Of a stretch of DNA of 64,000 bases, positions 5,123 to 61,927 are shown piece by piece. The first letter of the stretch is position 1. Each line of letters opens with the position of its first letter. The notes beneath the pieces are model-generated. The model was not told the DNA's origin and searched no databases. It saw only the letters and a program-made list of their open reading frames with translations. A program made the position numbers and the translations under genes. The DNA is taken from positions 1-64,000 of the forward strand of contig NZ_RDQF01000013.1 in NCBI RefSeq assembly GCF_004114425.1, given 5' to 3'. The stretch comes from Bradyrhizobium vignae (GTDB taxonomy: Bacteria; Pseudomonadota; Alphaproteobacteria; Rhizobiales; Xanthobacteraceae).

Positions 5123-6715
5123 ATGCGATTGCTGCGACCAACCTTTCCGTTTGCGGCGCTCGTGCTTGCGAGCACGATGGCGTTCGCCTTGGCGGGCCAT
5201 TTCGCCGCTGAGGCCGTCATTCGCCGCCAGCAGGCGCATCAACTCGACGAGCTGACCGAGGTCGTTCTGCGCCGGTCGGAATTTGCGGTCGATTTTGCCG
5301 CGGCCAGCCTGGACGAGCTCGCAAGGCGCAAGCTGGTCAGCTGCGAGCCGGGCGCACTGCAAGCCATCCGCCTGCACGTCTATCAGCGCTCGGCGATCAA
5401 GGACGTCCGGCTCGTCAAGCCGGATGGCTCCGTGATCTGCTCGGCCTATTCCGAGACGCTCGAATTCGACAAGGGATGGGTGGATCGTCGCGACATGCTG
5501 CCTTCGCGCGACAAGGCGCTTTCGCTGTTTCGCGTGGAGCAGTTCGGAGGCGCCGCCTTGGGCGTGCTCAGGGACATCGATGGCAGCTCCGCGCTCGTCG
5601 CCATTGTCGGCATCAACGCCAGCCTGTTCGACATCATGCCCGCCGAGCTGCGCGCACGCAGCGACGTGATCCTCGCCTTGGGCAATGGCGAGAAGCTCGG
5701 CAAATTCCAGAGCGACGCCGGTAAGTCCTTGCTGGAGCCGATCAGCTTCGAGCGGAATTCCGTTCGCTTCCCGCTTCATGCCACGATCCAGCTCGAGCGC
5801 GCGGTGCTTGCGAGCTGGAATAACGAGGCATATTGGCCCACAGTCGCGGTGGCCCTCGGACTTGGCGCAATCTTTGGCATCCTGTTGGCACGCAGCCGCC
5901 GCATGGAGGAGCCTGTCGCCGATCTCGATCGGGCGCTGGCAGCCGGCGAGTTCAAGCCATATTACCAACCGATCTTCGACCTGCGGACAGGTCAGATCAA
6001 GGGCTGCGAGATTCTGGCGCGTTGGCTGCGCCGAGACGGCTCGGTCGTCCCGCCGATGAACTTCATTCCGCTCGCCGAATCCAGTGGGCGCATCCAGGCG
6101 ATGACGTGGCATCTGCTGGGATCGGCGCTGACCGAACTGAAGCCGTTGCTGAAGACAGACAAGAATTTCAAGCTGTCCCTGAATGTCGTACCCAATCATC
6201 TCCTGAGTGCGGGCTTCGTCGAAACGCTGCGCCGCACGGTCCTGGCGGCGCGTGTCTCCGCGCGCCAGATCGTGGTCGAGATCACCGAGCGCGACGAGCT
6301 CGACGATCTCGCGCGCGCCGCGGCGGTCGTTGCCGAGCTGCGGGACCACGGCTTCCGCGTCGCCATCGACGACGTCGGCGTCGGCCATAGCGGACTGTCC
6401 CGGCTGAAGGGCCTCGGCGCCGACATGATCAAGATCGACAAGTTCTTCGTCGACACGATCACCGTGGACGCATCGACGACGGCGATCGTGGAAATGCTGG
6501 TGGCGCTTGCGAAGGACCTCAATATGACCGTGGTCGCGGAGGGCATCGAGACGGAGGAGCAGCTCCGTGCATTGATCGCGTCCGGCGTCGAGGAGGGCCA
6601 GGGCTATCTCGTTGCGCCGCCCCTGCCCTTCGCCCGCTTCAATGAGCTCGTGGTATCGCGCCGCGTGAGGCGGTCAGGCGCGGCGGTCTCCGGCGACACG
6701 GTTTTGGTGGCCTGA
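5123..6715 (+). CDS. CSS-motif EAL cyclic-di-GMP phosphodiesterase
   Basis: A 530-residue inner-membrane protein. A helix at about 8-28 and a second at about 236-258 bracket a periplasmic domain with cysteines at 74 and 106 (VSCEP and VICSAYS), the pattern of CSS-motif sensors whose redox state controls the enzyme. The cytoplasmic EAL domain spans about 270-520. Signature residues are present with variations: EIL instead of EAL, NVVPNH for the metal Asn, EITERDE, IDDVGVGHS, KIDKFF and VAEGIETEEQ. Since Asn, both Glu, Asp-Asp and Lys are retained, hydrolysis of c-di-GMP to pGpG is likely. It stands alone, with the chemosensory cluster 3 kb downstream on the other strand. Confidence 0.88.
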   Translation: MRLLRPTFPFAALVLASTMAFALAGHFAAEAVIRRQQAHQLDELTEVVLRRSEFAVDFAAASLDELARRKLVSCEPGALQAIRLHVYQRSAIKDVRLVKPDGSVICSAYSETLEFDKGWVDRRDMLPSRDKALSLFRVEQFGGAALGVLRDIDGSSALVAIVGINASLFDIMPAELRARSDVILALGNGEKLGKFQSDAGKSLLEPISFERNSVRFPLHATIQLERAVLASWNNEAYWPTVAVALGLGAIFGILLARSRRMEEPVADLDRALAAGEFKPYYQPIFDLRTGQIKGCEILARWLRRDGSVVPPMNFIPLAESSGRIQAMTWHLLGSALTELKPLLKTDKNFKLSLNVVPNHLLSAGFVETLRRTVLAARVSARQIVVEITERDELDDLARAAAVVAELRDHGFRVAIDDVGVGHSGLSRLKGLGADMIKIDKFFVDTITVDASTTAIVEMLVALAKDLNMTVVAEGIETEEQLRALIASGVEEGQGYLVAPPLPFARFNELVVSRRVRRSGAAVSGDTVLVA

Positions 6716-8314: not shown

Positions 8315-10048
8315 TCAAAACAATTCGATGCCATCGTCCGCGCTCTCGATCGCCTCGACCCGGCGCGTGGTCGCGATCGACGCCAGCCCGAGCGTCTGCA
8401 GAAATTCCCGGTGGACGTGCCGCTCGCGCTCCATCGTGTAGCGCGCGAACAGCTGGTCGAGCATCGCTTGGTCCTGCGCTTGCGGCCGCGGCTTCTGCGC
8501 GCCAGCGCTTGCGGCTTCGAGCCGCGCTGCGACCGCGGGCAATGCCGCGGAGGCCTCGCCAAGCGTGGTCATCAGGCCTTGCGCCGAATTCATGAGCTCC
8601 TCGAATTCCGCACCTTCATTGACCAGCCGGCTCATCAGCTTGCCGAGCCGTTCATTGCCGGCCTCGACCTCGCGCAGCGCCTGGAGAATCTGCGGTTCGA
8701 GCTTGGCGAGCTGGGTGGGATCGCCCTGCACGCGGAGCTCCTTCAGGTCCCTGGCCGAGCGCTCGATGCCGTCGAGCACGGGCCTCAGACGCCCCGCCCC
8801 CGCCGAGACCTGGTCGGCGGTGGCCTTCAGCTCGTTGGCAATGACGACGAAAGCGCTGCCGCGGCTGCCGAGATGGCTTGCCTTGAGGCCCGCATTCATT
8901 CCGATCAGCGTGATGTCGACGGTCGCCTCGGCCAGCCCGGCGATGGCGTGGCGGAATTTCGTCAGCGTCTCCTCGACGATCGCGAGCGCCTCGTCCACCG
9001 AGCGGCCGGCGCCCTCGCAGGTGGCGATCAGGGTCGAGGCGTGCGCCAGCGTCTGCTTGATGCGCGCCAGGAACGATGACGACCCGCCCTCCTCGCCGCC
9101 GAACAGCGTGCGGCCCCGGCCGACGACACTGCCCGCATCGCGCAGGATTGCGGTCAGCGCGTGAACGATCTGGCCGATGTCGCCGCCGAACTCGCGTTGG
9201 GCATCTCTGAGCTGGGCCGCCTGCAATTGACAAATGATGCGCACCCCGTCGTCGCTCGCGACAGGTTCGGGAACGAGGCTCGGGGTGGATCCCGAGGCGA
9301 GCGTGAGGCCATCGGAGACGTGCTCGAGACGCTGACGCGTGCTGTCGCCGGCCTGCAAGGAGATGATCGCACTGCCGACCGCCTCGGCGATCTTCCTCGT
9401 GCTGGCGCTCGCAAGATCGGCGAGATGGCTGCTGTTGCTGCGCTGGTCGCGCAACCCGGAATAGGCGGACGCGAGCTCGACGCTCTCCGCCGCCAGCTGA
9501 TTGCGGTAGCGGCTCTCGAACTCCTTCTGCCGGCCGAATGCGGTGGCGACCGCCTCGGACAGGCGCTGCTGATCCCGCGCGCAGCCCTCGATCGCGCCCT
9601 GGACGGCCTTGCCGAGATCGTAGGCCTCTTGCGTGAAGGCGAGAAAGCCCTCGCGGTCGCCGTCGAGCGAGGCCGCCTCGATCCGCGCGCTACGCGCGAT
9701 GATGGTGATCATCTGGATGTGCTTGAACAGCGGCTTGAGCAGCGAAGACGCCTCCGCCGTGCTCGTGCCGATGGTCTCCAGCAGCGCGGCCTCGGCCGGC
9801 AGCGCCTGCGCCAGGTCGTTGAGCCGCGCGGCGATCTCCTGGAGCGCCGTTGCAGCGCCTTCGATCTCGGCGCCGGAGAGCTCACCGGAAAGCGCCGCGA
9901 GACCCTGGTTCAGCTCCTTGAAGACGAGATGCCCGCGTCCCAGCTCGTTGCCGACGCGCGCGAACACGGCCTCGATTCGCGAGGAGACGTCCTCGATCCC
10001 GGCGATGGCCTCGGTGAGCATATTGGCTGGAATGAGCGACATTGCCAT
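8315..10048 (-). CDS. Soluble MCP-like chemosensory protein
   Basis: A 577-residue, mostly helical protein without membrane spans or signal peptide. Two segments resemble the signalling hairpin tip of methyl-accepting proteins: ITIIARSARIEAASLDG near residue 115, and ITLIGMNAGLKASHLG followed by FVVIANELKATADQ near 360-390. Both keep the spacing of the canonical tip but replace many of its residues. It ends in a coiled region. Its ATG overlaps the cheB stop by one base, so it is the last gene of the che operon and translationally coupled. It may bind CheA or CheW as a receptor-like adaptor, or serve in a non-motility output; this is inference. Confidence 0.75.
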   Translation of the reverse strand: MAMSLIPANMLTEAIAGIEDVSSRIEAVFARVGNELGRGHLVFKELNQGLAALSGELSGAEIEGAATALQEIAARLNDLAQALPAEAALLETIGTSTAEASSLLKPLFKHIQMITIIARSARIEAASLDGDREGFLAFTQEAYDLGKAVQGAIEGCARDQQRLSEAVATAFGRQKEFESRYRNQLAAESVELASAYSGLRDQRSNSSHLADLASASTRKIAEAVGSAIISLQAGDSTRQRLEHVSDGLTLASGSTPSLVPEPVASDDGVRIICQLQAAQLRDAQREFGGDIGQIVHALTAILRDAGSVVGRGRTLFGGEEGGSSSFLARIKQTLAHASTLIATCEGAGRSVDEALAIVEETLTKFRHAIAGLAEATVDITLIGMNAGLKASHLGSRGSAFVVIANELKATADQVSAGAGRLRPVLDGIERSARDLKELRVQGDPTQLAKLEPQILQALREVEAGNERLGKLMSRLVNEGAEFEELMNSAQGLMTTLGEASAALPAVAARLEAASAGAQKPRPQAQDQAMLDQLFARYTMERERHVHREFLQTLGLASIATTRRVEAIESADDGIELF

Positions 10049-11139
10049 CAGCCCGCCACCGCTGGATGCCCGGCCTGATACCAGAGCATGATCTCGCGCG
10101 GGATGTGGTGCAGCGAAACGACCTTCTCGACGCCGCCATGGGCGATGGCTTCCTTGGGCATGCCGAACACCACGCAGCTCTCTTCGTCCTGCGCCCGCGT
10201 CGCGGCGCCGAGCTTGCGCATCTCCAGCATGCCGCGCGCACCGTCATCGCCCATGCCGGTCATGATCACGCCGAGTGCGTTGGCGCCGGCATGCTGGGCG
10301 GCCGAGCGGAACAACACGTCCACCGACGGACGATGCCGGGACACCGGCGGTCCGTCCTTGATCGCGATCTGGTAGCGCAGACCGATGCGCTGGAGCAGCA
10401 TGTGGCGGGCGCCCGGCGCGATATAGGCACAGCCCGGCAGCACCGGCTCACCGTCCTCGGCCTCCTTGACCCGGATCTGGCAGACGCTGTCGAGACGCCT
10501 GGCAAAGGCCGCGGTAAAGCCTGCCGGCATGTGCTGGACGATAACGATCGGCGGACAGTGGGCCGGCAGCATCTCGAGGACGTCGTTGAGCGCTTCGGTG
10601 CCGCCCGTCGAGGCGCCGATGCAAACGATGCGCTCGGTGGTCGGCCGGACCTTGCCCTGTACCGGCGGCGGGATGATGGCATCGGCAGTCAGCTTCTTCT
10701 CGATCTCCCGACGCTCCGCGCGCGGACGCACCCGGGCGCGGGCGGCCGATTTCACGGCCTCGCGCAACCGCGTGGAGCATTCGAGCAGCGCCTGCCGCGT
10801 GTCGATCTTCGGCTTCGGCACGATGTCGACCGCACCCGCCTCGAACGCCTCGAACATCACGTTGGAGCCCTCCTCGGTGAGCGAGGAGCAGATGATCACC
10901 GGGATCGGACGTTGCGCCATGATCTTGCGCAGGAACGTCATGCCGTCCATGCGCGGCATTTCGAGGTCGAGAATGATGACATCGGGCAACTCCTTCTCGA
11001 GCCGGCGCGCCGCGGCGAAAGGATCGGAGGCGGTCGCCATCACCTCGATATCAGGGTCTTCGGAAAGGATCGTCTGCAGGATTTGGCGCACCGACGCCGA
11101 ATCGTCCACGATCAGCACGCGAACTTTCCCCCTCGGCAT
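10048..11139 (-). CDS. cheB: CheB receptor methylesterase/deamidase
   Basis: A 363-residue protein: receiver domain 5-120 with the phospho-acceptor Asp58 ([11 protein letters not shown]), then a linker and the methylesterase domain at about 168-355. The catalytic triad is visible: Ser177 in GASTGG, His203 in VQHMPAGF and Asp299 in TGMGDDG. CheB removes methyl groups from receptor glutamates when phosphorylated by CheA, giving adaptation. Here it acts with the cheR product encoded 16 bases upstream, on the two MCPs of the same cluster. Length and architecture are standard. Confidence 0.96.
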
Positions 11140-11155
11140 CGTGGTTGCGCTCCGG

Positions 11156-12010
11156 CTAGACCTGGAAGATGGTTGGCTGAACCTGCTTCAGCCCAGGCAC
11201 GGTACTGTGAATCATCGATTCCGAATGCCCGACCAGCAGGTAGCCGCCCGGACGCAAATGGCCGCACAATTGCTCGACCACCTTGCGCTGGGTCTCGCGC
11301 TCGAAATAGATCAGGACGTTGCGGCAGAAGATGATATCGACGTCACGGTCGACGGGATAGGACTTGTCCATGAGGTTCATCCTCATGAAGTGCGTCATGC
11401 GCCGTAACTCGGGCACGATCCGCACTTCGCCGCGCGACCTGTCCCGCGACGACGAGAAGTATCGTTTTGCGAATGGCTCCGGCACCGGGGCGAGCACATC
11501 GCGGGTGTAGATCGCCGTCCTGGCGAGGCGCAGCACCGCGGTCGAGATGTCGGTGCCGAGGATGCGGTACTGGAAGCGCGAGCCGTTCCGCGTCATGTCG
11601 TCCAGCACCATGGCGATCGTGTAGGCTTCCATGCCGGTGGAGCTCGCCGAGCTCCAGATCTTCAGGTTCGCATTCTTCCGTCCATGCGACTTGAGCAGAG
11701 CAGGGACCGCGACGTCCCTCATGAAGGTGAAGTGCTGCGGCTCGCGGAAAAAATCGGTCTTGTTGGTCGTCACCACGTCGATGAGATGAGTAAGCTCGGT
11801 CTCGAACAGATCCGCCTCGAACAGGTTCTCGACATATTCATTGAGACCGGCGAAGTTCAGCGCGCGCACGCGCTTGTGCAGCCGCCCCTCCAGCATCAGC
11901 CGCTTGCCCTGCGGCAGCTTGATGCCGACCTGGCTCTCGATCAATTCGGCGATGGTCCGGAAGTGGCGGTCGGACAGATGCACGGCCGTATCCTGCATGG
12001 CGGGCATCAT
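11156..12010 (-). CDS. cheR: CheR receptor methyltransferase
   Basis: A 284-residue SAM-dependent methyltransferase. The N-terminal helical domain (about 12-85) is followed by the catalytic Rossmann domain with the SAM motif [18 protein letters not shown] (the usual CS-TGEEPYS is slightly changed), the ILGTDIS acidic loop, and [11 protein letters not shown], a signature of the family. It methylates glutamates of chemoreceptors. The start could be either of two adjacent ATGs (12010 or 12007). It lies 140 bases downstream of the second MCP gene, a gap that contains a strong hairpin. Confidence 0.95.
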
Positions 12011-12103
12011 GGATGACGACCCTGCTTCGTAACGGCCGCCTGCACTGAATGTCGGGTCATCCTGGCCATGTTGAATCCCACGCGTTCACGTTCACCGCTG
12101 AAA

Positions 12104-12133
12104 GCGGACCGGTCACCGAACGGACCGGTCCGC
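12104..12133 (-). terminator. Hairpin between the MCP gene and cheR
   Basis: A perfect 10-base stem (GCGGACCGGT with ACCGGTCCGC) and 10-base loop. There is no T-run on the coding strand, so it may act as an attenuator or RNA-stability element rather than a classical terminator; cheR follows in the same direction. Confidence 0.4.
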
Positions 12134-12150
12134 AGGAGCCTCGCGGGGGC

Positions 12151-13950
12151 CTAGCGCTGGAAATCGGCGTCGCGGTCGTCCTCGCCGTCATTCATGTCGA
12201 AAGTGAAGCCGCCGCCGGCGACCTTTGCGGCGCGTACCGGCTTGGCCTGCGGCTTCTTGGCCGGTCGTTCAGCCGCCGCCATGGAGGCCGCCTTGGCGCG
12301 CAGCTGGCTGACCGCCCGGTCGATCGGCGCGGGCGCCTGGCTCTTTGCGCCCTGTTCGATGCGGAAATAGGCGATGGTGGACTGCAGCTGTTCGGCCTGC
12401 GAGGCGAGCTCCTCCGAGGTCGAGGACACCTGCTCGGAGGCGCTGGCGTTCTGCTGGCCGACCTTGTCGAGCTGCTGGATCGCCTGGTTGATCTGCGCCG
12501 AACCGACGTCCTGCTCGCGGCAGGCCGCGGTGATCTCCTCGACCAGCTCGGCCGTCTTCTTGATGTCAGGAACGAGCTTGGCGAGCATCGAGCCCGCCTC
12601 CTGCGCCACCTTGACGGTGTCGGCCGAGAGCGTGCCGATCTCGGCGGCGGCCGCCTGGCTGCGCTCGGCGAGCTTGCGCACCTCGGAGGCGACCACCGCA
12701 AAGCCCTTGCCGTGCTCGCCGGCGCGCGCGGCCTCGACCGCTGCGTTGAGCGCGAGCAGGTCGGTCTGGCGCGCAATCTCCTGCACGATCGTGATCTTCT
12801 CGGCGATGGTCTGCATCGCGTTGACGGCGCGGCCCACGGCGGCGCCGCTGGCCTCGGCGTCCTTGGCGGACTGCGCGGCGATCTTCTCGGTCTGGTTGGC
12901 GTTGTCGGCGTTCTGCTTCACGTTCGAGGCCATCTCCTCCATCGATGAAGAAGCTTCCTCGGCGGACGAGGCCTGTTCGGCTGCGCCCTGCGAGAGCTGC
13001 TCGGCGCTCGCGGAGAGCTCCTGGCTGCCGGCAGAGACGTTCTGCGCCGCCGTCAGCGCCTCCGATACGATCTGCCGGAGCTTCTCCACCATGCGTTCGA
13101 GCGCGAGGCCGAGCGTGTCCTTGTCCGACAGCGGCTTGGCTTCGATCGTGAGATTGCCTCGTGCGATCTCGTTGGCGACCGCCGCGGTGGCATTCAGATT
13201 CACCGTCATCGCGTTCAGCGACTTGATGAGATCACCGATCTCGTCGTCGCTGGAGGATTCGATCTTTTGGCTGAGATCGCCGATCGCCACCGCATCGGCA
13301 AGGCCGACGGCCTGCCCCAGCGACCGGCTGATGTTGAGTGCGATCAAGATGGCGGCCACCGCCGCGATCAGGAGCGAAGCGATGACCAGGATCATCAACA
13401 GCAGCTCGGCGCGCGAGCCATCCTGCCTGGCCTGCTCGACCTGCTCGGCCATGTTCTTCTTGACGTTGTTGATGTAGGCATTGGCCGCTTCGAGCGCATC
13501 GGCGACGACCTTGCGGCCGTCATGCATCGAGCGGTCCATCGCCCTGGCCTTGTCGGTCTTCGCCAGCCTGACCGTTTCGTCCTGGTAAGCGTTCATCCTG
13601 CCATAGGCGGCGGAGAAGCCATCCATCAGCTTCTTGCCGCCTTCGCTGGCGGCTGCATAGATCTCGTCCTTGGACTTTGCGAGCTGTTCGCGGGTCTTGG
13701 CGAGGTCGGCGACGAATTGATCGTATTCGGCGTCCGATGCGAGGATCGAGTTCTTCTCCGCGCGAAGCTGGAGCAGGATGCCTTCCTTGAGCTCGGACGC
13801 CTTTTCCATGCGATTCGCGCGAGCGACCAGAGCCTCGGTGGTGCCGACCATATCGGACAGCTTCATGTAACCGACCCCGCCGGCGATCATGGACAGCAGG
13901 ATGACCACACCGAATGCGCTGGCCAGCTTGGCTTTGACGGTGAATCTCAT
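12151..13950 (-). CDS. Methyl-accepting chemotaxis protein (599 aa)
   Basis: A transmembrane chemoreceptor. Helix 1 (about 9-29) and helix 2 (about 193-213) flank a periplasmic four-helix-bundle-type domain of about 165 residues; HAMP and MCP signalling domains follow. The tip [20 protein letters not shown] is canonical. The start is the ATG at 13950 ([14 protein letters not shown]), with an AAGGGA site just upstream; an open frame 31 codons longer is ignored. The C-terminus ends in a Pro/Lys-rich linker and the tail [16 protein letters not shown], also seen in the neighbouring MCP. It signals through CheW and CheA of the cluster. Confidence 0.95.
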
Positions 13951-14011
13951 CTCAATCCCTTTTGGTTCGAATGGAGCTGCGTACGCTCGATAACGCCTAA
14001 AACGAACAAAC

Positions 14012-14500
14012 TCAGGCGGCGCGGGACGCGTCCACGGCAGCATCGCGCCCGTCCGGGAACTCGTCCTTCGCCATCAGTTTGGCGAGATCAAAGATGATGA
14101 CAAACTTTTCGCCCTTGCGCCCGATACCGGCCGCATAGTCAGACTGCCATTTGCCGCCGACCTCCGGCACGGGCTCGATCGCCTGTTCGTCGATGTCGGT
14201 GACCTCGAACACGCAATCCGCGACGAAGCCGACGCCGACCAGGCGGTCCTTCATCGGCACGTCGAGGATGATGATGCGCGTCGCCTCGGTCGCCGAGACG
14301 CTTGGCAAGCCGAGCTTGGTCCTGAGATCGACGATCGGATAGCCGCTGCCGCGCACGTCGATCATGCCCAGCAGGAAGCTCGGCGCATGCGGCAGCCGCG
14401 AGATCGGCCGCATATCCAGGATCTCCCGGACGTTGCGAATGCTGATGCCGAACGTCTCGCCGGCGAGACCGAGCGTCAGGTATTGCGAGGTTGCGGCCAT
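14012..14500 (-). CDS. cheW: CheW coupling protein (first copy)
   Basis: A 162-residue protein made of a single CheW (SH3-like) domain: [22 protein letters not shown] at the start, [23 protein letters not shown], then [24 protein letters not shown]. It couples receptors to the CheA kinase. It lies between the two MCP genes, 45 bases after the stop of the upstream MCP, and a second CheW-like gene exists at 16672-17136. The C-terminal tail (ASRAA) is Ala-rich. Start at the ATG at 14500 is unambiguous. Confidence 0.94.
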
Positions 14501-14545
14501 GGTGCGTCCATTCGATGTTGGGAGAGGCCTGTTCGGACCAGCCAG

Positions 14546-16633
14546 TCAGCGTTGAAACTCCGCGTCGCGATCGTCGCCGCCAGCATCCATGTCGAAGGCG
14601 AAGCCGCCTCCCGCGCCGGCAACCTTCAGGGCTCGGGCCGGTTTGGCAGCGGGCGCCTTGCCGCGGCGATCGACCGCCGCCATCTTCGCCGCCTGGGCGC
14701 GGAGCTGTCCAACGGCCCGGTCGATCTCCTGAGGTGCGGCCTTCGCTCCGCGCGCAGTGTCATCGATACGGAAGAACGAGATCGTCGACTGCAACTGCTC
14801 GGCCTGGGAGGCCAATTCCTCGGAGGTCGAGGAGACCTGCTCTGATGCGCTGGCGTTCTGCTGGCCGACCTTGTCGAGTTGCTGGATCGCCTGGTTGATC
14901 TGGGCCGAGCCGACGTCCTGCTCGCGACAGGCCGCGGTGATCTCCTGAACGAGCTCCGCCGTTTTCTTGATGTCGGGCACCAGCTTGGAGAGCATCTCTC
15001 CGGCCTCCTGGGCAACCTTGACTGTTTCGCTCGACAAGGTGCCGATCTCGGCGGCGGCGGCCTGGCTGCGCTCGGCGAGTTTGCGCACTTCGGAGGCGAC
15101 CACCGCAAAGCCCTTGCCGTGCTCACCGGCACGGGCGGCTTCGACGGCAGCGTTGAGCGCGAGCAGGTCGGTCTGCCGCGCGATCTCCTGAACGATCGTG
15201 ATCTTTTCGGCGATGGTCTGCATCGCCTGAACGGCCCGACCGACAGCGCTGCCGCTGGATTCGGCATCGCGCGCCGACTGTGCGGCAATCTTCTCCGTCT
15301 GGTTGGCGTTGTCGGCGTTCTGCTTCACGTTGGACGCCATTTCCTCCATGGAAGACGAAGCTTCTTCCGCCGAGGAAGCCTGCTCCGTCGCACCCTGCGA
15401 CAGCTGCTCGGCGCTGGCGGAAAGCTCCTGGCTGCCGGCAGATACGTTCTGGGCCGCGGTGAGAGCTTCGGACACGACCTGACGAAGCTTCTCGACCATG
15501 ACGTTGAGAGAACGGACGAGATCTCCGATCTCATCGTTGCTCTTGACGGCGATCGTCTGGCTCAGATCGCCATTGGCGACCGCGCCGGCGAGGCTGACCG
15601 CGCGCGACAAGCCGTGGCTGATGCTGAGTGCCATCATGACTGCCGATCCTACGCCAAGCAGGAGTGACAATCCGATGACGCTGACCAACATGATCTTTGC
15701 GCGAGCGGCATTCTGCACCGACTCCGCGGACATCTCCGCCATCTGCTTCTTGACCAACGTGATGTACTCGCCCGAGGTTGCGATCGCGTCCATAGCGTTC
15801 GCCTTCCCTTCGGTCGCGGCAAGCGTGGTTGCCCTGATATTACCGCCCTCCTTCACGATTTCCGCCACGCGGGAGACGACATTGACGAGGCGATCCGTCT
15901 GAGCCACAAAGCTCGCGGGCGACACGCCGGCCGCGGTGAGGGGGGCGACGGCCTGCTTGGTTGCCGCCTTGAGCGCTTCGTCTCCTTCGCTGATTGACTT
16001 GATCGCGGCATTCAGCTCCTCGACGCTGGAGGCCGAGAACGACAAGGCGACCTGCCGCTGCAGGCGGACACCTTCGAGCCTGATGGCATGGATCGCCAGA
16101 ACGGCGCTGTTCTTCTCGGCGGAAGGCGGCAGGCGATTCAGCTCGGCGAGAGACGCATCGAGCGAGTCGTTCCAATGCTTCAGAATCGGCATCGCGTCGG
16201 TGGTCCACAGCTGGCCGCCCCGATAGTTCGAATTCTTCATCGCGAGCCCGACGATGACGTCCTCTCCGGCATTCATCTTGTCGTAAGACGCCGAGAACTT
16301 GTCGAGCAGGTGCTTGCCGACGTCAGAAGCGGTCGCCTTGATCTCGGTAAGAAGACGACTCACCTCGGCGCGATACTTCTTGATCTCATCGGCCAGCTTC
16401 TGCATCTCCGCGTCCGTGGACGCGAGGATGATGTCGCGCTCCGCCCGGGTCTGATAGAGCACGTTGTTTTGCAGCTCGCCGGCCCTGTCGATGCGCGCCG
16501 CGCGCACCACGAAATCCGCGGAGACCTCGACCTGATCCGAAAGCTTCAGAAAAGCCAGTCCACCCGTGAGTCCCGAAAGCACGATGATCGCACCAAACGC
16601 GCAAGCCAGCTTTGCCTTGATCGTGAATCGCAT
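14546..16633 (-). CDS. Methyl-accepting chemotaxis protein (695 aa)
   Basis: A second transmembrane chemoreceptor, larger than its neighbour because of a longer periplasmic domain (about 30-310 between the two helices). HAMP and signalling domains follow, with the tip [20 protein letters not shown] identical to that of the other MCP. From the HAMP exit to near the end the two proteins are almost identical in sequence, and both close with an [16 protein letters not shown]-type tail. Start at the ATG at 16633 ([14 protein letters not shown]) matches the neighbour. The differing sensor domains imply different ligands with a common output. Confidence 0.95.
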
Positions 16634-16671
16634 ATCGAGCCCCCAATTTACCGGCCTTCTCGAGACCGCTC

Positions 16672-17133
16672 TCAATTCAAAATGCGTTCCATGTTGGGAA
16701 CAATAACGAACTCTTCACGCCACTTCGCGATAAAACGAATGAACTCAGGCTTCCAGTGCATGCCGACACGCGGCGTCTGCTGCACATCGGCCTGCGAGAT
16801 CTCCGTGACCTCGTAAACCTTGTCCGCGGTCACGCCGACCAGCACCGGTTCGTTATCGATCTCGATTTCGATCACGACGATGCGGGTGTCGGCGGAGTTG
16901 TCGAGCTGCGGCATGCCGAAACGGATGCGCAGATCCGCGAGCGGAATGACGTTGCCGCGCACGTTGATCACGCTGGGAACGAAGGCTCGCGCGCCCGCAA
17001 CCTGGGTCACGGGAACGGGATCGATGATCTCGCGCACGAGGCCCGCGTCCAGCGCGAACTTCTCCTCGCCGAGGCCGATCATCACGACCTGCATCGCACT
17101 CGACTGCTGCTCGCCCGCCAACCCGCCGTTCAT
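16672..17133 (-). CDS. cheW: CheW coupling protein (second copy)
   Basis: A 153-residue CheW-domain protein ([57 protein letters not shown]). It lies directly after cheA; its ATG at 17133 overlaps the cheA stop (ATGA), and an alternative GTG lies one codon upstream at 17136. It probably links the two MCPs of this cluster to CheA. Two different CheW proteins in one operon suggest that each MCP has its own preferred partner, which is inference from arrangement alone. Confidence 0.94.
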
Positions 17134-19217
17134 CACGCCGCCTCGTTGATATGCTGCTTCTCGAACTTCGACTGCGCCAGCGAGACCAGCTGCGCGACGT
17201 CGAGGATCAGCGCCGCCGTGCCGTCACCCAGGATCGTCGCGCCGGAGAAGATCGTGACGTCCGAATGCAGCTTGGACAGAGACTTGATCACGGTCTGGTG
17301 GTTGCCGATGATCTGGTCGGCGACGAGGCCGACGCGGGTCTCGCCGGTCGAGATGATGATCGTCTTCTGGTGCTGGTCGGGCGCACCGGATGCGGCCATG
17401 AGCTCGCGCAAGCGCAAGAAGGGCACGAGGTTGCCGCGCACGTTGAGGAAGTTGCGGCCGCGCGAGCGCTCGTCCTCGGCCGTCAGCTCGACGCATTCCT
17501 CGACCGCCGACAGCGGGATGATGTAGCGGCCTTCGCCGACGCGGATGAGCAGGCCTTCGATGATCGCGAGCGTGAGCGGCAGGCGCAGCGTCACGGTGGT
17601 GCCCTGGCCGGGCCTGGTCGACAGGTCGATCGAGCCGCGCATGTTCTCGATGGTGCGCTTGACCACGTCCATGCCGACGCCGCGGCCGGACAGTGCCGAG
17701 ATGGTCTGCGCCGTCGAGAAGCCCGGGTGGAACAGGAATTGATGGATCTCATGGTCGGTCAGCACGGCGCCGGCCGCGATCAGCCCCTGCTCTTCCGCCT
17801 TCGCGCGGATGCGCGCGGTGTTGAGGCCGCCGCCATTGTCCTTCACCGTGACCAGCACCTGCGCGCCCGAATGCACCGCGGCAAGCTCGATCCGGCCCTG
17901 ATCGGTCTTGCCGTTGGCGGCGCGCGTCGCGGTGTCTTCGATGCCGTGGTCGATGGCGTTGCGGATCAGGTGCACCAGCGGATCGGCGAGGCACTCGATC
18001 ATGGTCTTGTCGAGCTCGGTATCCTCGCCCGAGGTGACGAATTCGACCGGCTTGGACAGGTCGCGCGACAGATCGTGCACGAGGCGGCGGAAGCGGCCGA
18101 ACAACGAGCCGATCGGCACCATGCGCGCGCCCATCGTGGTGTCGCGCAAGGAGGACGCAAGGCGCTCGATCTCCTCGGCGATCATCTTGATCGAGAGGTC
18201 GGAGCCGGAGGCGGCGAGCTGGGTCAGCCGCGCCTGGGCGATGACGAGCTCGCCGACCCGGTCCATCAGCTCGTCGAGGCGCTCGGCCTGGACGCGAACC
18301 GTGGCGATGCCACGCTCTTGCTTTCCGTCCTCGCGGCGCGCGGGTGCCGCCTCGCGCTTGATCTCCGGCTTCGTCTCCGGCTTGGCCTCAGATTGGGGTT
18401 TCGCCCTTGCGACGGGCTGCTCGGCAACAGCCTCCACCACCGGCGCAGCCATCTCGGCGATCACCGGCTCCTCCTCGGACAGCTGGAACAACGGGACCGG
18501 CGCGAGCGCTTCGACACGTTGCAAAGGCGAGAGCGTCAACTTCATCTCGTCCTGGACGAACATGAAGACGTCGTCGATGGCGTCCTTGGTGCAGGCGGCG
18601 TGCAGCTTGACGTCCCACTTCAGATAGCAGTCTTCCGGCTCCATCTCGTCGAGGAACGGGATGCCGTCGGTGACGGGCACGACGAAGCAGGGACCGAGCT
18701 TGCAGAGATCTTCCAACAGATCGAGCGGATTCGAGCCGTTGCGCAGGATATGGGAATCGAACTCCAGATACAGGTGCCAGCCGGCCTGCTTGCTCTCGGG
18801 TGGAGACAGCAGCGGTGCCTCGACGACCGGAGCGGCAGGCTTGTCGGCGGAGACGAAGCGCTTGAGGTCGTCGAGGATGGCTTCGCCGATGATGTCGTCG
18901 GTCGACTGCGGGTCCTCGATCAACGCGCGGATGTAGTCCTTGGCGGCGAGCGCGACCGAGATCAGCTCCTGCGTCGGTTTGATCTCGCCCTTCCTGACGC
19001 GGTCGAAGGCGGTCTCGAATTCGTGGGTGAAGGAGGCGACCTTGTCGAAGCCGAACATGGCGCCCGATCCCTTGATCGTATGCAGGGCGCGGAAGGCGGA
19101 ATCGACCAGCTCGCGGTCGTCGGGACACTGGCCGAGATCGAGCAAGGCCCCTTCAAGAACTTCGAAGAGCTCGCTGGCTTCCTGACGGAAGACCTCGGCC
19201 GGGTCCATTGCGCTCAT
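17133..19217 (-). CDS. cheA: CheA histidine kinase
   Basis: A 694-residue kinase with the usual order: an HPt domain with the phospho-His46 (ALHTIKGSGAMFGF), a linker with a response-regulator-binding P2-like part (about 150-260), a Pro/Lys/Glu-rich linker, dimerisation helices, an ATPase domain (HLIRNAIDHGIED N box; DNGGGLN and GRGVGMDVVK G boxes) and a CheW-like domain at the end. It autophosphorylates under receptor control and passes phosphate to CheY and CheB. The start ATG at 19217 overlaps the cheY stop. A longer frame continues upstream but runs in a shadow of cheY. Confidence 0.95.
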   Translation of the reverse strand: MSAMDPAEVFRQEASELFEVLEGALLDLGQCPDDRELVDSAFRALHTIKGSGAMFGFDKVASFTHEFETAFDRVRKGEIKPTQELISVALAAKDYIRALIEDPQSTDDIIGEAILDDLKRFVSADKPAAPVVEAPLLSPPESKQAGWHLYLEFDSHILRNGSNPLDLLEDLCKLGPCFVVPVTDGIPFLDEMEPEDCYLKWDVKLHAACTKDAIDDVFMFVQDEMKLTLSPLQRVEALAPVPLFQLSEEEPVIAEMAAPVVEAVAEQPVARAKPQSEAKPETKPEIKREAAPARREDGKQERGIATVRVQAERLDELMDRVGELVIAQARLTQLAASGSDLSIKMIAEEIERLASSLRDTTMGARMVPIGSLFGRFRRLVHDLSRDLSKPVEFVTSGEDTELDKTMIECLADPLVHLIRNAIDHGIEDTATRAANGKTDQGRIELAAVHSGAQVLVTVKDNGGGLNTARIRAKAEEQGLIAAGAVLTDHEIHQFLFHPGFSTAQTISALSGRGVGMDVVKRTIENMRGSIDLSTRPGQGTTVTLRLPLTLAIIEGLLIRVGEGRYIIPLSAVEECVELTAEDERSRGRNFLNVRGNLVPFLRLRELMAASGAPDQHQKTIIISTGETRVGLVADQIIGNHQTVIKSLSKLHSDVTIFSGATILGDGTAALILDVAQLVSLAQSKFEKQHINEAA

Positions 19218-19579
19218 GTGCGCACCAGCTTGCCAACCACCGCGAGCAACTGCTCGGGCTTGAACGGCTTGGTGATCCAGCCGGTGGCGCCGGCGCTCTT
19301 GGCCTCCTGCTTTACGGCATCGTTGGATTCGGTGGTCAGGAACACGATGGGCATGCCGACCGCGCTCGGCAGCTTGCGCAGTGCCCGGATCAGCTCCAGT
19401 CCATTCATGACGGGCATGTTGAGGTCGGTGATGACGAGGTCGAGCTTGCCCGCTTGCGCCTTGGCGAGCCCTTGCGCGCCGTCGCCGGCCTCGATCACGT
19501 TGTGACCGGCCGGCTCGAGCACGACCTTGATCATTTGCCGGATACTGGGGGAGTCGTCGACGGTCAGAATCGTGGCCAT
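19214..19579 (-). CDS. cheY: CheY-type single-domain response regulator
   Basis: A 121-residue receiver domain. Asp8, Asp9 and the phospho-acceptor Asp52 (DLVITDLNMPVMNG) are present, as are Thr (FLTTES) and Lys of the KPFKPEQL loop. It can take phosphate from CheA. No output domain is attached, so it works through binding to a target, the flagellar switch or another partner. It overlaps STAS on one side and cheA on the other (1 and 4 bases), so the three are translationally coupled. Confidence 0.94.
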   Translation of the reverse strand: MATILTVDDSPSIRQMIKVVLEPAGHNVIEAGDGAQGLAKAQAGKLDLVITDLNMPVMNGLELIRALRKLPSAVGMPIVFLTTESNDAVKQEAKSAGATGWITKPFKPEQLLAVVGKLVRT

Positions 19580-19902
19580 TAGATGCCATCTTTCTTTTGC
19601 GGGAAATGCTGATCGATCAGTGAATCGCTGGCGAAGCCGGCGCGGCGCAGGGTGTTGCGCAGAGACTGGGAGAAGGAGGTCAGGACCACCGGGCGGCCCT
19701 GGGCCTCGCCCGTCTTGGCGGTCGACAGCAGAAGCTGGATCGAGGTCACGTCGGCCTTATCGACGCTCGAACAGTCGATCTCGAGCCGCTCCTGGCGGCC
19801 GAACGCCTCGCGAACGAGGTCGTAGACGCTGCGAATGGCCGCAATGCTGCAGTCGGCGGGCAACCGTAACGACCACTTCGGCTCCGTGGGATTGAGCGCC
19901 AT
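19579..19902 (-). CDS. STAS-domain protein at the head of the che operon
   Basis: A 107-residue protein. The central part (LEIDCSSVDKADVTSIQLLLSTAK) fits a STAS fold, with the regulatory loop around CSSVDKADVTS; the Ser that would be phosphorylated in SpoIIAA-type proteins is present in the loop. Such proteins can bind kinases or sit in chemosensory pathways with non-flagellar outputs. It is the first gene of the operon, ahead of cheY with a one-base overlap. What it senses or binds is not visible from the sequence. Confidence 0.78.
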   Translation of the reverse strand: MALNPTEPKWSLRLPADCSIAAIRSVYDLVREAFGRQERLEIDCSSVDKADVTSIQLLLSTAKTGEAQGRPVVLTSFSQSLRNTLRRAGFASDSLIDQHFPQKKDGI

Positions 19903-20166
19903 CGCTGCCCCGCCTTTGCGAAACTTCTAATACACGTTTGACGCGAATCAGATGAGCAAACCCCTAACGGAGGGCTCCGTACAACTACGGGTCACATTCC
20001 CAAAGACTTCGCGCGAATGCCTGCAACCGTGCATAGCGTGGCGAAATCTCATGCAAGGTGCGCAAGCCCATCGCCGCGTATCTGCACGATGCATTTGCTT
20101 CGCGTTAAATCGTGCGCGGTATGCAAGGGGCCGTGCTTTTGCCAGCGAAGAGAGCCCCGGCCGCCG

Positions 20167-21294
20167 ATGCTGACCCAAGCGCTCCTGGTTGATGACAGTC
20201 GCTCCGTCCTCAACTTCCTGAAACGTCACATCGAGGCCGAAGGTCTGGTCGAGGCCACCGCCTTCCTCGATCCCGTGGAGGCGCTGGCCTGCGCGCAGGA
20301 GCGCGTCTTCGATCTGGTGCTGGTCGACTATGAGATGCCGCATATGGACGGCATCAGCTTCATCCGTGTCTTCCGGACCTTGGCCGGCTGCTCCGACATT
20401 CCGATCGCGATGATCACCTCGCGACAGACCGATGACGTCAAGATGGAAGCGCTGCAGGCCGGTGCAACCGATTTCCTGCCCAAGGCGCCGCAGAGCGTCG
20501 AGATGACGGTGCGCCTGCGGAATTTGATTCAGCTCGGTGCAGCCGTGCGCAAGCTCAACGATCGCGCCGCGCACCTGGCCAGCGAAGTCGCGGCCGCGAC
20601 ACGAAAGCTCGGCGAGCGCGAGGAGGAGATCATCCTGCGGCTCGCGCTCGCGGTCGAATACCGCGACAACGACACCGGCGAGCATACGCTGCGTGTCGCC
20701 CGCTACAGCCGCATCATCGCCGAGCAGCTCGGCCTGCCGGCCCGGCTCTGCCGCGACATCTATCTCGCCGCGCCGCTGCACGACGTCGGCAAGGTCGCCA
20801 TTCCCGACAATATCCTGCTCAAGCCAGGCAAGCTCACCGACGAGGAGATGGCGGTGATCCGGACGCACGCGACGATCGGCGAGCGAATCCTGGCCGATTC
20901 CGGCTGCGAGCTGATCCGGCTCGGTGCGCAAATTGCCGCAGGACATCACGAGCGCTGGGACGGCGCGGGCTATCCGAACGGGCTCAAGGCGGATGAAATC
21001 CCGGTCGCCGCGCGCGTGGTCGCAGTCGCCGACGTCTTCGACGCCCTGACGACGCGGCGGCCATATAAGGAGCCGATGCCGCTCGAGGTGGCGCGGACTT
21101 ACCTCGCTGAGAACGCGGGCCGGCAGTTCGATCCCGCCTGCGTCGAGGCTTTCTTGTCGCGCTGGGACGAGGTGATCGAGATCGCCGCCGGTCAGCGGAC
21201 GACCTCTTTTCAGAGGATCGAGTCCCCTCTCGTTCCAGCTATGGAGGGTGCGGCGGAGAGCCGTCCGGCCAATCGGCCGAGGCCGACCGCCTGA
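20167..21294 (+). CDS. Response regulator with HD-GYP phosphodiesterase domain
   Basis: A 375-residue protein: receiver domain 1-120 with phospho-acceptor Asp54 (LVLVDYEMPHMDG) and a C-terminal HD-GYP domain at about 155-350. The metal-binding signatures are present: DTGEHTLRVARY, LHDVGKVAIPDNILLKPGKL, HHERWDGAGYPNGL and VVAVADVFDALTTRRPYK. HD-GYP enzymes hydrolyse c-di-GMP to GMP. Start at the ATG at 20167 is chosen because the receiver domain begins there; 50 further codons upstream are open but unlike a receiver. It is divergent from the che operon, so it may be a target of CheA or its partner kinase. Confidence 0.93.
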   Translation: MLTQALLVDDSRSVLNFLKRHIEAEGLVEATAFLDPVEALACAQERVFDLVLVDYEMPHMDGISFIRVFRTLAGCSDIPIAMITSRQTDDVKMEALQAGATDFLPKAPQSVEMTVRLRNLIQLGAAVRKLNDRAAHLASEVAAATRKLGEREEEIILRLALAVEYRDNDTGEHTLRVARYSRIIAEQLGLPARLCRDIYLAAPLHDVGKVAIPDNILLKPGKLTDEEMAVIRTHATIGERILADSGCELIRLGAQIAAGHHERWDGAGYPNGLKADEIPVAARVVAVADVFDALTTRRPYKEPMPLEVARTYLAENAGRQFDPACVEAFLSRWDEVIEIAAGQRTTSFQRIESPLVPAMEGAAESRPANRPRPTA

Positions 21295-57896: not shown

Positions 57897-57972
57897 GGGC
57901 CTGTAGCTCAATGGTTAGAGCCGGCCGCTCATAACGGTCTGGTTGCAGGTTCGAGTCCTGCCGGGCCCACCA
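57897..57972 (+). tRNA. tRNA with CAT anticodon, most likely tRNA-Ile2
   Basis: A full cloverleaf: acceptor stem GGGCCTG with CGGGCCC (one G-T pair), D arm GCTC-AATGGTTA-GAGC, anticodon stem GGCCG/CGGTC with loop CTCATAA, T arm with GGTTCGAGTC, and an encoded ACCA end. The anticodon CAT fits elongator tRNA-Met or the lysidine-modified tRNA-Ile2. The short D loop and the TGGT-GC stretch resemble ileX-type tRNA-Ile2 more than tRNA-Met. The integrase stop is 14 bases past the CCA end, so the 3' end is the probable attachment site. Confidence 0.88.
57948..57972 (+). other. Probable attachment site (att) at the tRNA 3' end
   Basis: Inferred from the position of the integrase gene. The crossover segment is likely within the T arm and acceptor end; the second direct copy should be beyond the right edge of the window, so it cannot be checked here. 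Confidence 0.45.
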
Positions 57973-57986
57973 ATAAAATCAGTAAC

Positions 57987-59240
57987 TTATGAGGGATGAT
58001 TTCGTTTCATCGGAAGCACCGCACCAGATATCGCACCAGATACGTGCGCCTTTCGTTCGCCAGCCGAATCACGTCTGGCGATCTTTTCCACAGCATCGGA
58101 CAAATAGTCGGGATGGTGATGACCATAGGTGTTGAGCAACACCTCTAGCGACATCCCGAGATAGCCAGCTGCCTGCCAAGGATCCGCACCTCTCTGCATG
58201 AGCCAGGTCGCTGCGGTGTGCCGCAAAGTGTGAGGGGAGATTCCCGGGCCGAGTCCTGCGAGCCTGACAGCACTCTTGAATGCCGTCTTGACTGAGCTCA
58301 CAGCCTTTCCATTGTACTCCACAAAATGCTTCGCCTCTGGATTAACTCGGTGCCAGCGCCGCAGGTGCGCGAGCAAGCGCAAGGGGATCGGCACGGTCGG
58401 TTGCCGTTTGTTGGTTTTCGCGCTGCCCTGCTTCAGGCGATAGTAGCGGCCACGCTCTAAGTCGACGTAAGAGCGACCAATCGCCGGAATGGGAGATGCA
58501 GCTGCGATAGCTCCGGCACGAGTTCCACTGTAGATCCCCAATAAAATAAACCGTGCAAGATGGCGCAATGGACGCTTGCTTGTCGGGACCTTCACATCGT
58601 CGGTCGGCCGACGCGAGCCCTTTTGCATTTCGCGATAGCGCCAGCAGGTCCAAATCAGTTTGGCCGCATCGCTTCGCGTCAGCCACTTGTCTCTAGGTTG
58701 GCCCTTCTCTGGCAGCGATATCTTGACGATCTCCCGATGATATCCTTCGGCCGCATGGAGACCAATGGCTGCGCGGAGGTCTTCAAGGTCTCGGCGCGCG
58801 CCTCCCCTCTTGGCGCGCTTCTTGGCGTACGAGCGACAGGCCTCCCCATTTACCTCGCCCAGCATTTTTGCTCCCCACCAGTCGTTCAACCGCTCGATCC
58901 GCTTTTTGAACTTGCGGATATCGGGGATGGTGTCTTCGCTCTCGCTATCAACATTGAAACGGGCGCGAAGCTTGTCCAATTGCGCATCCAAATAGATTGA
59001 GAGGACGTCCGCGACGGCGATATCGTCAATGTGACGAATTCGTCGCTTGGGCGTGTGTTTAGACGTGATGTAATCCCTTAGTTTTTCTTCCGCGGCCGCA
59101 ATCTCATCTGCAGCGCAGCCCGTGCCGACATCCCGGCCGTTGTCTCTGATGATCCAGGTCGCTTGGTGGGTGATCTTTCCGCTTTTGTTTCGGCGGGCGG
59201 CCTTAAGCTGGAGTCTGGCCCCCTTGCTTCTTCGCGGCAT
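57987..59240 (-). CDS. Tyrosine site-specific integrase
   Basis: A 417-residue phage/island-type integrase. An N-terminal arm-binding part (KGARLQLKAARRNKSGKITHQATWIIRDNGRDVGTG) and SAM-like core domain precede the catalytic domain. Active-site residues are Arg in GIYSGTRAGAI, the box HTLRHTAATWL (His-x-x-Arg) and His/Tyr in MSLEVLLNTYGHHHPDYL. Transcription is toward the tRNA. It probably catalyses integration at the tRNA 3' end, making this the left edge of an island that runs beyond the window. Start at 59240 overlaps the preceding gene by 163 bases. Confidence 0.94.
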   Translation of the reverse strand: MPRRSKGARLQLKAARRNKSGKITHQATWIIRDNGRDVGTGCAADEIAAAEEKLRDYITSKHTPKRRIRHIDDIAVADVLSIYLDAQLDKLRARFNVDSESEDTIPDIRKFKKRIERLNDWWGAKMLGEVNGEACRSYAKKRAKRGGARRDLEDLRAAIGLHAAEGYHREIVKISLPEKGQPRDKWLTRSDAAKLIWTCWRYREMQKGSRRPTDDVKVPTSKRPLRHLARFILLGIYSGTRAGAIAAASPIPAIGRSYVDLERGRYYRLKQGSAKTNKRQPTVPIPLRLLAHLRRWHRVNPEAKHFVEYNGKAVSSVKTAFKSAVRLAGLGPGISPHTLRHTAATWLMQRGADPWQAAGYLGMSLEVLLNTYGHHHPDYLSDAVEKIARRDSAGERKAHVSGAISGAVLPMKRNHPS

Positions 59241-59437
59241 AGCTCTCGCATCCGTTCGATATGAGCCAGGGTCGTAAATTCCTTGCCGGCAATCTTCTCG
59301 ATAACCAATCGGTTACGATCGCGCTCGCGACGTAGGCCCGCGACCGTCATTCCTCCCAGAGGGAACGCGATCTTCACGGCATCAACAAGGCGAAGAGGGG
59401 TATCGGGTGTAATTTCAGGTTGCGCTCGATTTGACAT
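59078..59437 (-). CDS. Excisionase-like DNA-binding protein
   Basis: A 119-residue protein. Residues 12-66 (LRLVDAVKIAFPLGGMTVAGLRRERDRN, EFTTLAHIERMRELCREEA) resemble the small winged-HTH proteins often encoded just before rhizobial integrases. From residue 67 on the sequence is low in complexity and basic (ERSPTKRPGSSETTAGM) and overlaps the integrase's first 54 codons in another frame. A role in directing excision or controlling the integrase is an inference. Confidence 0.6.
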   Translation of the reverse strand: MSNRAQPEITPDTPLRLVDAVKIAFPLGGMTVAGLRRERDRNRLVIEKIAGKEFTTLAHIERMRELCREEARGPDSSLRPPAETKAERSPTKRPGSSETTAGMSARAALQMRLRPRKKN

Positions 59438-59463
59438 CGACGCTTGTCAGCTGTTGTGGGGGC

Positions 59464-60339: not shown

Positions 60340-60498
60340 GTGCTTTCCCCCTTCAGCGTCCTCATTTCAAAAATGGCGTCCGGCGCCACCTGGACGAAGC
60401 TTGGCGTATCAGTCGGGAAGCGGTACTTTGAAAATGCGCAAGGGCCTTCGCAGAAAAGCGATCACCCGGCCCACGGGGCGGCAGCAAAGCGCAGGCGA

Positions 60499-61896: not shown

Positions 61897-61927
61897 TACG
61901 GGCAGCTCCTCGCACGCCAAAGGCAGC

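Follow-up and report, generated by a model that had tools for sequence, protein, structure and literature searches.

How is the signal terminated in a chemosensory operon whose genes include no recognised phosphatase? The question applies to many alphaproteobacteria, soil symbionts included, and is raised here by a che operon of Bradyrhizobium vignae found in the window, i.e. the whole stretch of 64,000 nucleotides of contig NZ_RDQF01000013.1 that was analysed. We suggest, with a probability of roughly 60%, that the last gene of this operon, here called the tail gene, encodes a CheY-P phosphatase that belongs to the operon itself and is built on a receptor scaffold.

The chemosensory operon

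The operon is complete, with the order STAS, CheY, CheA, CheW, MCP, CheW, MCP, CheR, CheB and tail (Table 1), and several adjacent genes overlap, for example at TGATG where cheB meets the tail gene. The matches of CheY, CheA, both CheW proteins, both MCPs, CheR and CheB all exceed the Pfam cut-offs. In a CheA tree that contains no class references, the CheA proteins of tail-bearing operons form a single group (24 rows, 100/100).

Table 1. Features of the che operon, its tail gene and the neighbouring c-di-GMP genes (positions in the window)
Feature	Position	Strand	Basis
STAS-domain protein, first operon gene, CheS-like position	19579..19902	-	Pfam STAS_2 52.5 bits, passes cut-off
CheY, single receiver domain	19214..19579	-	Pfam Response_reg 103 bits
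CheA kinase (Hpt, dimerisation, ATPase and CheW domains)	17133..19217	-	Pfam and CheA tree
CheW 1	16672..17136	-	Pfam CheW 104.7 bits
Membrane MCP 1 (4HB sensor, HAMP, MCPsignal)	14546..16633; open frame from 16675	-	Pfam and hydrophobic windows
CheW 2	14012..14500	-	Pfam CheW 114.4 bits
Membrane MCP 2 (4HB sensor, HAMP, MCPsignal)	12151..13950; open frame from 14043	-	Pfam and hydrophobic windows
CheR methyltransferase	11156..12010	-	Pfam CheR 195 bits
CheB methylesterase with receiver	10048..11139	-	Pfam CheB_methylest 232.6 bits
Tail gene, 577-aa soluble protein, proposed CheY-P phosphatase on tandem degenerate receptor hairpin	8315..10048	-	Profile, conservation, hydrophobicity
Degenerate hairpin tip, N-terminal half, tail residues 116-138	9635..9703	-	Alignment to FAM2 hairpin
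DxxxQ block SLQAGDSTRQRLEHV, tail residues 230-244	9317..9361	-	D235/Q239 31/31; window conservation; block profiles
Second hairpin, tail residues 324-520, N385 and G394 kept	8489..9079	-	Alignment
YTMxxERxxH box, tail residues 537-546	8411..8440	-	T538 30/31, R543 31/31
DDGIELF C-terminal peptide, candidate CheY-binding tail, after low-confidence linker	8318..8338	-	31 C-termini
Divergent receiver-HD-GYP protein, candidate second output	20017..21294	+	Pfam Response_reg and HD_5; HD and HHERWDGAGYP residues read in sequence
EAL phosphodiesterase with CSS-motif domain, nearby	5123..6715	+	Pfam EAL 222.8 bits, CSS-motif 32 bits

Pfam identified no CheD, CheC, CheX or CheZ among the ten operon genes, a search of the draft genome found no cheD, and the sole FliM found in the genome lies on a different contig. 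These results agree with the original prediction of a chemosensory operon headed by a STAS gene and containing neither cheD nor a flagellar gene. A canonical CheZ is encoded elsewhere in the genome. The STAS head had in addition been taken as a hint of a non-standard output, an argument that we rejected because rhizobial che clusters ordinarily encode CheS, a STAS protein which is described as binding CheA (PMC12654446; PMC8429497).

A soluble protein made of two receptor hairpins

Not one 19-residue window of the tail protein exceeds a hydrophobicity of 1.6, whereas the two MCPs of the operon contain 25 and 29 windows of that kind. Its two halves match one another by profile (E 1.4e-6) and each of them matches FAM2 (E 9e-12 and 2e-14), a second soluble family that has an intact receptor hairpin and a QFQDxxxQ motif and is usually encoded after cheB in another type of che operon. 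The tail is a tandem duplication of the receptor hairpin, and its description as a soluble protein with two degenerate MCP hairpins is therefore borne out. It had also been called unusual, which we can confirm; its receptor-like identity fares less well, a phosphatase of the CheZ/CheT type being the better reading.

For comparison, 31 tails were gathered by a whole-protein search in which no motif was used, 18 of them non-redundant at 80%. A role as a soluble, degenerate receptor or as a component of the array, which would bind CheA or CheW and modulate the kinase while the DxxxQ motif described below would be structural, is in keeping with the profile matches of both halves to the receptor-hairpin family, with Pfam MCPsignal matches, at E values of up to 10, in each of the 14 tail-family members scanned, and with a PDB sequence search in which the tail retrieves receptors on its C-terminal half. 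However, although the asparagine of the receptor tip is present in 31/31 tails, the glutamate four residues on is found in none of them and the tip arginine is absent in 20. Moreover, MCPsignal scores 16.1 bits on the tail, under the cut-off of 34.6, no sensor domain exceeds the Pfam cut-off, there is no transmembrane region, and conservation peaks at the DxxxQ block and not at the tip. Tip residues, Pfam score and missing membrane part together make the receptor role unlikely.

Foldseek with the tail model gave no PDB match at E <1e-3. The fold search with the full model listed long-helix proteins, among them receptors and pore-forming toxins, and gave no decisive hit; CheZ was not on the list, which proves nothing. 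The N-terminal half folded alone without an alignment reached a pLDDT of 58.6 and this model was left out.

The DxxxQ block

The phosphatase reading takes its main argument from a block in the first half of the tail. Its consensus, LQxGDxTRQRxEHV, spans the 14 residues with the highest conservation in the protein (0.84 compared with a mean of 0.40), and D235, R238, Q239, R240, E242 and H243 are kept in every one of the 31 tails. In the structure model D235 and Q239 fall within a predicted helix (residues 232-252). The second half has no DxxxQ common to the family. The motif served as scan key for the 80 named loci considered below, so that its conservation there is circular and was not counted.

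Ordinary MCPs have a motif of their own, QxDxxxQQN, situated 22 residues closer to the tip, and we considered whether the DxxxQ of the tail could be the same element. The distance from tip to D is 93 in 43 of 44 ordinary MCPs taken from the fetched che loci, whereas it is 115 in 11/18 tails (107-111 in the others) and 115-116 in all ten FAM2 proteins in which it could be measured, seven of the 17 having been kept out of the count as the tip pattern was unmatched. This difference, together with the absence of a profile match between MCPs and the DxxxQ block, makes it less likely that the two motifs are the same element, though with some three heptads inserted the spacings would come near each other.

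The connection to CheZ

CheZ, the CheY-P phosphatase, is characterised by a DxxxQ motif and an acidic-hydrophobic C-terminal end. The FAM2 profile matches that of CheZ with E 6.7e-7, a score reached by none of 150 column shuffles, and the score falls from 56.6 to 24.6 once 60 columns in the motif block are removed. A block of 120 columns taken by itself still matches CheZ (E 1.7e-6). The FAM2 block matches the tail block (E 2.8e-9), while none of the three control alignments (MCP sensor part, CheA and MCP signalling part) exceeds a score of 17.2 on either of these two blocks. When the tail is compared with CheZ directly the score is 29.4 with a probability of 5%; it is reached by 0/150 column shuffles but equally by the MCP (29.8) and CheA (29.9) controls. 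Pfam CheZ gave no match for the tail (E up to 1 or 10) nor in the ten FAM2 proteins scanned, and the AXXFQ box of CheZ is not kept in the tail, which reads LQAGD, FAM2 having QFQD. As judged from these profiles, the statistical link of the tail to CheZ runs solely through FAM2. L156 was left out of the CheZ set because of a wrong frame, L186, L191, L197 and L198 out of the FAM2 alignment (tip pattern unmatched), and L071 as a near copy.

CheT, another DxxxQ protein, is small and has its gene beside cheD. A frame in the CheT position was recognised in 4 of 11 cheD loci, with 137-164 codons between stops; all four contain QxxDxxxQ and three have an FF end. With just these four sequences in the profile, the comparison gave E 0.073 for the tail, which is not significant, E 1.4e-4 for FAM2 and E 1.3e-3 for the MCP control, and is not decisive.

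Distribution of the tail and its C-terminal peptide

The search of the species collection gave 411 candidate loci, of which 80 named loci were kept and examined. The gene preceding the tail is cheB in 80/80, and because of this constancy the association of the tail with the operon is more than chance. No frame in these 80 loci had the genome's own CheZ as its best match. The arrangement varies in other respects: of 30 neighbourhoods, three have the tail ahead of cheY and a further one has it divergent at the STAS end, and in four no cheA is in view beside it. The entire cassette, with the tail last, is also carried on a Methylosinus plasmid. FAM2, for its part, is the next che gene past cheB in 13 of 17 loci, in one of them across a gap of 530 bases.

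The coupling to cheB, seen in the TGATG junction and in the constant order of the two genes, would also suit an adaptation or targeting partner, not an enzyme, that binds CheR or CheB, for instance, and places them at the arrays; CheT of S. meliloti reportedly binds CheR. However, the neighbourhoods in which the tail precedes cheY or is divergent do not follow this pattern, and the invariant DxxxQ helix would be left unexplained, so that we regard a targeting role as highly unlikely.

The C-terminus of the tail is acidic with two of L, F or M in 30/31 proteins. It follows a linker, and residues 562-577 have a pLDDT <50. For comparison, CheZ of the class ends in [DEQS][IV]Dx[LI][LF] in 28/29 and FAM2 in [IV][EQ][LM]F in 17/18 matched frames. 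The peptide is retained in 75 of the 80 named tails; it is missing in L148, L149 (Alsobacter) and L155 (Lichenibacterium), the other two being a contig end (L127) and a broken frame (L146). We did not lower the odds of a phosphatase for the three relatives without the peptide, since it is the DxxxQ block that carries the argument.

Neighbouring c-di-GMP genes

The divergent HD-GYP gene and the nearby EAL phosphodiesterase gene announced by the original prediction are both present and supported by Pfam. A receiver-HD-GYP match turns up within the stretch fetched for 46 of the 60 named loci that show cheY and cheA, and in 5 of 14 divergent operons that have retained the tail along with cheY and cheA. 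Moreover an HD-GYP gene adjoins the tail gene itself in L055, L064 and L153 (Azospirillum). The c-di-GMP output proposed for this operon gains some support from these counts and the three adjacent genes, and the operon may plausibly have a second output of this kind through the HD-GYP regulator. That the tail is a phosphatase acting mainly on the HD-GYP receiver, thereby setting c-di-GMP and not CheY-P, would suit the same 46 loci and three adjacencies, and is nevertheless very improbable, the HD-GYP gene being out of view in 9 of those 14 divergent operons.

Proposed role of the tail

We hypothesize that the operon forms a self-contained chemosensory pathway, in which two membrane receptors, two CheW, CheA, CheY, CheR and CheB would be complemented by a tail gene that supplies signal termination. 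The STAS protein may act in the manner of CheS, binding CheA and steering phosphotransfer. The tail is predicted to be a soluble all-helical protein derived from two copies of the receptor hairpin. The first copy, with its degenerate tip, would carry an active helix of the CheZ/CheT type (LQxGDxTRQR), D235 and Q239 acting on CheY-P as they do in CheZ. The second copy, which has kept the hairpin and has no shared active helix, would lead through the linker to the acidic-hydrophobic peptide that may tether CheY. The adjoining receiver-HD-GYP gene could give a second, c-di-GMP output.

If this is true, a function can be predicted for a family of 411 candidate loci (80 examined), an enzyme can ride on a chemoreceptor scaffold, and some soluble proteins that carry a receptor annotation may be something other than sensors. 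The proposed phosphatase would be of a kind that escapes gene annotation; the one annotated tail relative that we found is labelled hypothetical. More tentatively, soluble receptor-hairpin CheY-P phosphatases might represent a branch of signal termination in chemosensory systems that has so far gone unrecognised. FAM2, in whose examined members the tip is preserved, could then sit in the array as a receptor, and the tail could be a duplicated module of which one copy kept catalysis and the other the hairpin and the CheY tether. DxxxQ phosphatases would in that case have become distributed over receptor scaffolds, with CheZ and CheT as possible relatives of these proteins.

Comparison with known systems

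The tail resembles soluble MCPs in being a helical hairpin protein whose C-terminal half retains the tip asparagine and glycine. It differs from them in lacking the tip glutamate, the sensor and the membrane part, and in its additional DxxxQ block with a different spacing. With CheZ (PF04344) it shares a DxTxQR[IL] helix and an acidic-hydrophobic C-terminal peptide, whereas it has no Pfam match or AXXFQ box and is fused to tandem receptor hairpins.

Within the same genus, the che3 cluster (class F8) of B. diazoefficiens USDA110 is described as containing an additional cheW and several MCP genes (PMC8429497), as does the present operon. However che3 is said to have a CheA of 636 aa and to lack cheY (PMC13390405), and because of the missing cheY the che3 genetics (PMC13390405), the nearest that are published, are not directly relevant here; the two clusters were compared by description.

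In comparison with CheS, the lone STAS domain of the operon is likewise encoded immediately 5' of cheY and cheA, although the operon of Bradyrhizobium vignae has one cheY and not two; the likeness is one of domain and position. In the account of PMC12654446, CheT (S. meliloti; Agrobacterium atu0522) is a DXXXQ protein, CheZ-like by AlphaFold, that dephosphorylates two CheY proteins unequally, and its che cluster also encodes a CheS (atu0515), numbered just ahead of cheY1 (atu0516). The tail differs from CheT in its 577 aa, in its receptor hairpin scaffold and in that the genome search found no cheD; it is like CheT in its DXXXQ and in belonging to an alphaproteobacterial che cluster with a STAS protein.

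Organization of the operon

The che operon comprises ten genes, with overlapping junctions between cheB and the tail gene (TGATG), STAS and cheY (TAATG) and cheY and cheA (ATGA). The original prediction of a STAS-headed operon that closes with the tail gene and has no cheD proved sound, as all ten genes were seen and no CheD was found in a search of the 8.2-Mb genome (156 contigs). The same search identified a single copy of the tail gene, two CheA genes and, each on a contig other than that of the operon, one canonical CheZ and one FliM match. The STAS protein likely acts, by analogy, like CheS (for CheS and CheT, see PMC12654446 and PMC8429497).

Features discussed in the text, with their positions
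Feature	Sequence	Position	Strand	Content
che operon	window		minus	STAS, CheY, CheA, CheW, MCP, CheW, MCP, CheR, CheB, tail
Tail gene	window	8315-10048	minus	577-residue soluble protein
Receiver-HD-GYP gene	window	20017-21294	plus	divergent from the operon
Neighbouring genes	window	21369-24315		gene with no Pfam match, then CHASE2 adenylate/guanylate cyclase gene
Likely island end	window	57897-64000		includes tRNA-Met gene
Phage-type integrase	window	57987-59240	minus	directly after tRNA-Met
Plasmid operon (L269)	NZ_AP022335.1			178-kb Methylosinus plasmid; complete operon: STAS, response regulator, CheA, CheW, two MCP, CheW, CheR, CheB, tail
Plasmid gene pair (L270)	NZ_JX627582.1	204-2447		Methylobacterium oryzae plasmid pMOC3; adjacent STAS and response regulator genes, MCP gene beside them

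The tail protein as a putative phosphatase

The tail protein is predicted to be entirely helical; the model has a mean pLDDT of 84.5, confidence being low for residues 562-577. In profile comparison the two halves of the protein match each other (E 1.4e-6). The C-half also matches ordinary receptors (E 2e-9), whereas no match to them was obtained with the N-half (E 0.02). In the non-redundant tail set 8 of 18 invariant columns lie at 232-243, and among the 31 sequences found by whole-protein search D235 and Q239 never vary, the receptor tip glutamate is present in none, and 30 end in an acidic-hydrophobic peptide. This peptide also occurs in 75 of 80 loci kept from a scan keyed on the DxxxQ motif; in the five exceptions the peptide is absent (3), or the tail is cut by a contig end (1) or has a broken frame (1). 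The tails of L148 and L149 (Alsobacter) terminate just past the YTMxxER box and that of L155 (Lichenibacterium) has a different end, so the peptide can be lost.

In CheZ a C-terminal peptide tethers CheY while the D and Q residues promote hydrolysis. These two residues are described as critical for phosphatase activity in PMC7750401. We suggest, with a probability of about 0.6, that the tail is a receptor-derived CheY-P phosphatase: CheY, once phosphorylated by CheA, would be tethered by the C-terminal peptide of the tail, and D235 and Q239 would promote CheY-P hydrolysis in the fashion of CheZ. A search of open-access literature found no account of a CheY phosphatase built on a receptor hairpin.

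A partial match to the tail led to a second soluble family, FAM2 (L228, L229, L230 and others), which belongs to another type of che operon, has open frames of 354-547 codons and unites a receptor hairpin with a CheZ-like FQDxxxQ block and a C-terminus resembling IELF ([IV][EQ][LM]F) in 17 of 18 matched frames. The hairpin tip reads as intact in the ten members where the tip pattern matched. At 13 of 17 loci the first che gene to follow cheB is that of FAM2, in one case with a 530-base gap between them. Two of the FAM2 operons were found to contain CheD genes. In ten FAM2 proteins scanned against Pfam, MCPsignal was the only label above cut-off and CheZ gave no match. The FAM2 proteins may themselves act as phosphatases.

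Profile comparison aligned FAM2 with 29 alphaproteobacterial CheZ sequences (E 6.7e-7, FQDxxxQR aligned), the score falling from 56.6 to 24.6 once 60 motif columns were removed. The tail block matched that of FAM2 (E 2.8e-9); on either block, controls made from receptors and CheA scored no higher than 17.2. The direct score of tail against CheZ (29.4) is at control level (29.8 and 29.9), and the link between them is therefore indirect; their best alignment is in the right register and shifts elsewhere after masking of D235, T237, Q239 and R240. The hairpin tip and D are separated by 115-116 residues in ten FAM2 proteins, and a spacing of 115 is the commonest in the tail; in ordinary receptors the corresponding value for the QxDxxxQQN motif is 93.

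Distribution and mobility of the cassette

Tail orthologues of at least 50% identity were found in 10 of 18 other genomes of the genus, with a further 25% relative in one more (G007). Counting the B. vignae genome, full-length relatives occur in 20 of 249 genomes of the order, where 84 more have partial matches only (mostly to the receptor-like C-half among the matches listed), and in 3 of 289 genomes of the class, where the remaining 24 matching genomes align to the C-half only.

Among named genomes the scan identified 411 candidates; the 80 kept derive from Bradyrhizobium, Rhodopseudomonas, Devosia, Alsobacter, Azospirillum, Lichenibacterium and two MAGs classified to family or order only. 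In all 80, cheB immediately precedes the tail. A second set of 30 neighbourhoods places the tail after cheB (22), before cheY-cheA (3) or divergent at the STAS end (1), with no cheA in view in 4. In a tree, the CheAs encoded by tail operons cluster together (24 rows, 100/100), separate from the 15 CheAs of FAM2 operons.

The absence of cheA from the 14-20 kb examined around four relatives (L059, L060, L062, L063), together with an EAL-like gene near the last three, suggests that these tails are orphans, possibly serving other receivers. One Bradyrhizobium genome (G014:C445), which the matching coordinates of L121 and L128 point to as B. campsiandrae INPA 394B, has two oppositely oriented operon copies (L043 and L044) separated by about 117 kb, and the HD-GYP match of L043 is divided between two frames.

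The cassette ending in the tail can move, as seen on the Methylosinus plasmid, where integrase and toxin-antitoxin genes precede it and transposase genes follow. The tail there is annotated "hypothetical" and its DxxxQ block is LQIGDNTRQRVEH. The pMOC3 gene pair may be what is left of a cassette of this kind, no cheA having been found in the 16 kb viewed.

Neighbouring genes

The receiver-HD-GYP protein adjoining the operon may provide a second output, possibly through c-di-GMP as first proposed. Among the 60 kept loci showing cheY and cheA, STAS is present in 56 and HD-GYP in at least 46, the latter a lower bound because some loci may end before its position. In several Bradyrhizobium loci, the HD-GYP gene likewise has the gene with no Pfam match, which may be FecR-like, and the cyclase gene as neighbours. 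The end of the window is likely to be a boundary of a genomic island integrated at tRNA-Met, given the adjoining integrase and a drop in G+C from about 0.65 to 0.57-0.60 across 58-64 kb.

Relation to published chemosensory systems

Chemosensory classes are treated in PMC10782961. According to PMC13390405, strain USDA110 has three che operons, chemotaxis being driven by che2 with che1 as backup; single deletion of cheA3 gave no chemotaxis defect, and in a cheA2 mutant it slightly increased motility. The same paper describes che3 as having no cheY, whereas the operon of the window encodes CheY, and che3 as reported is thus not the arrangement found here.
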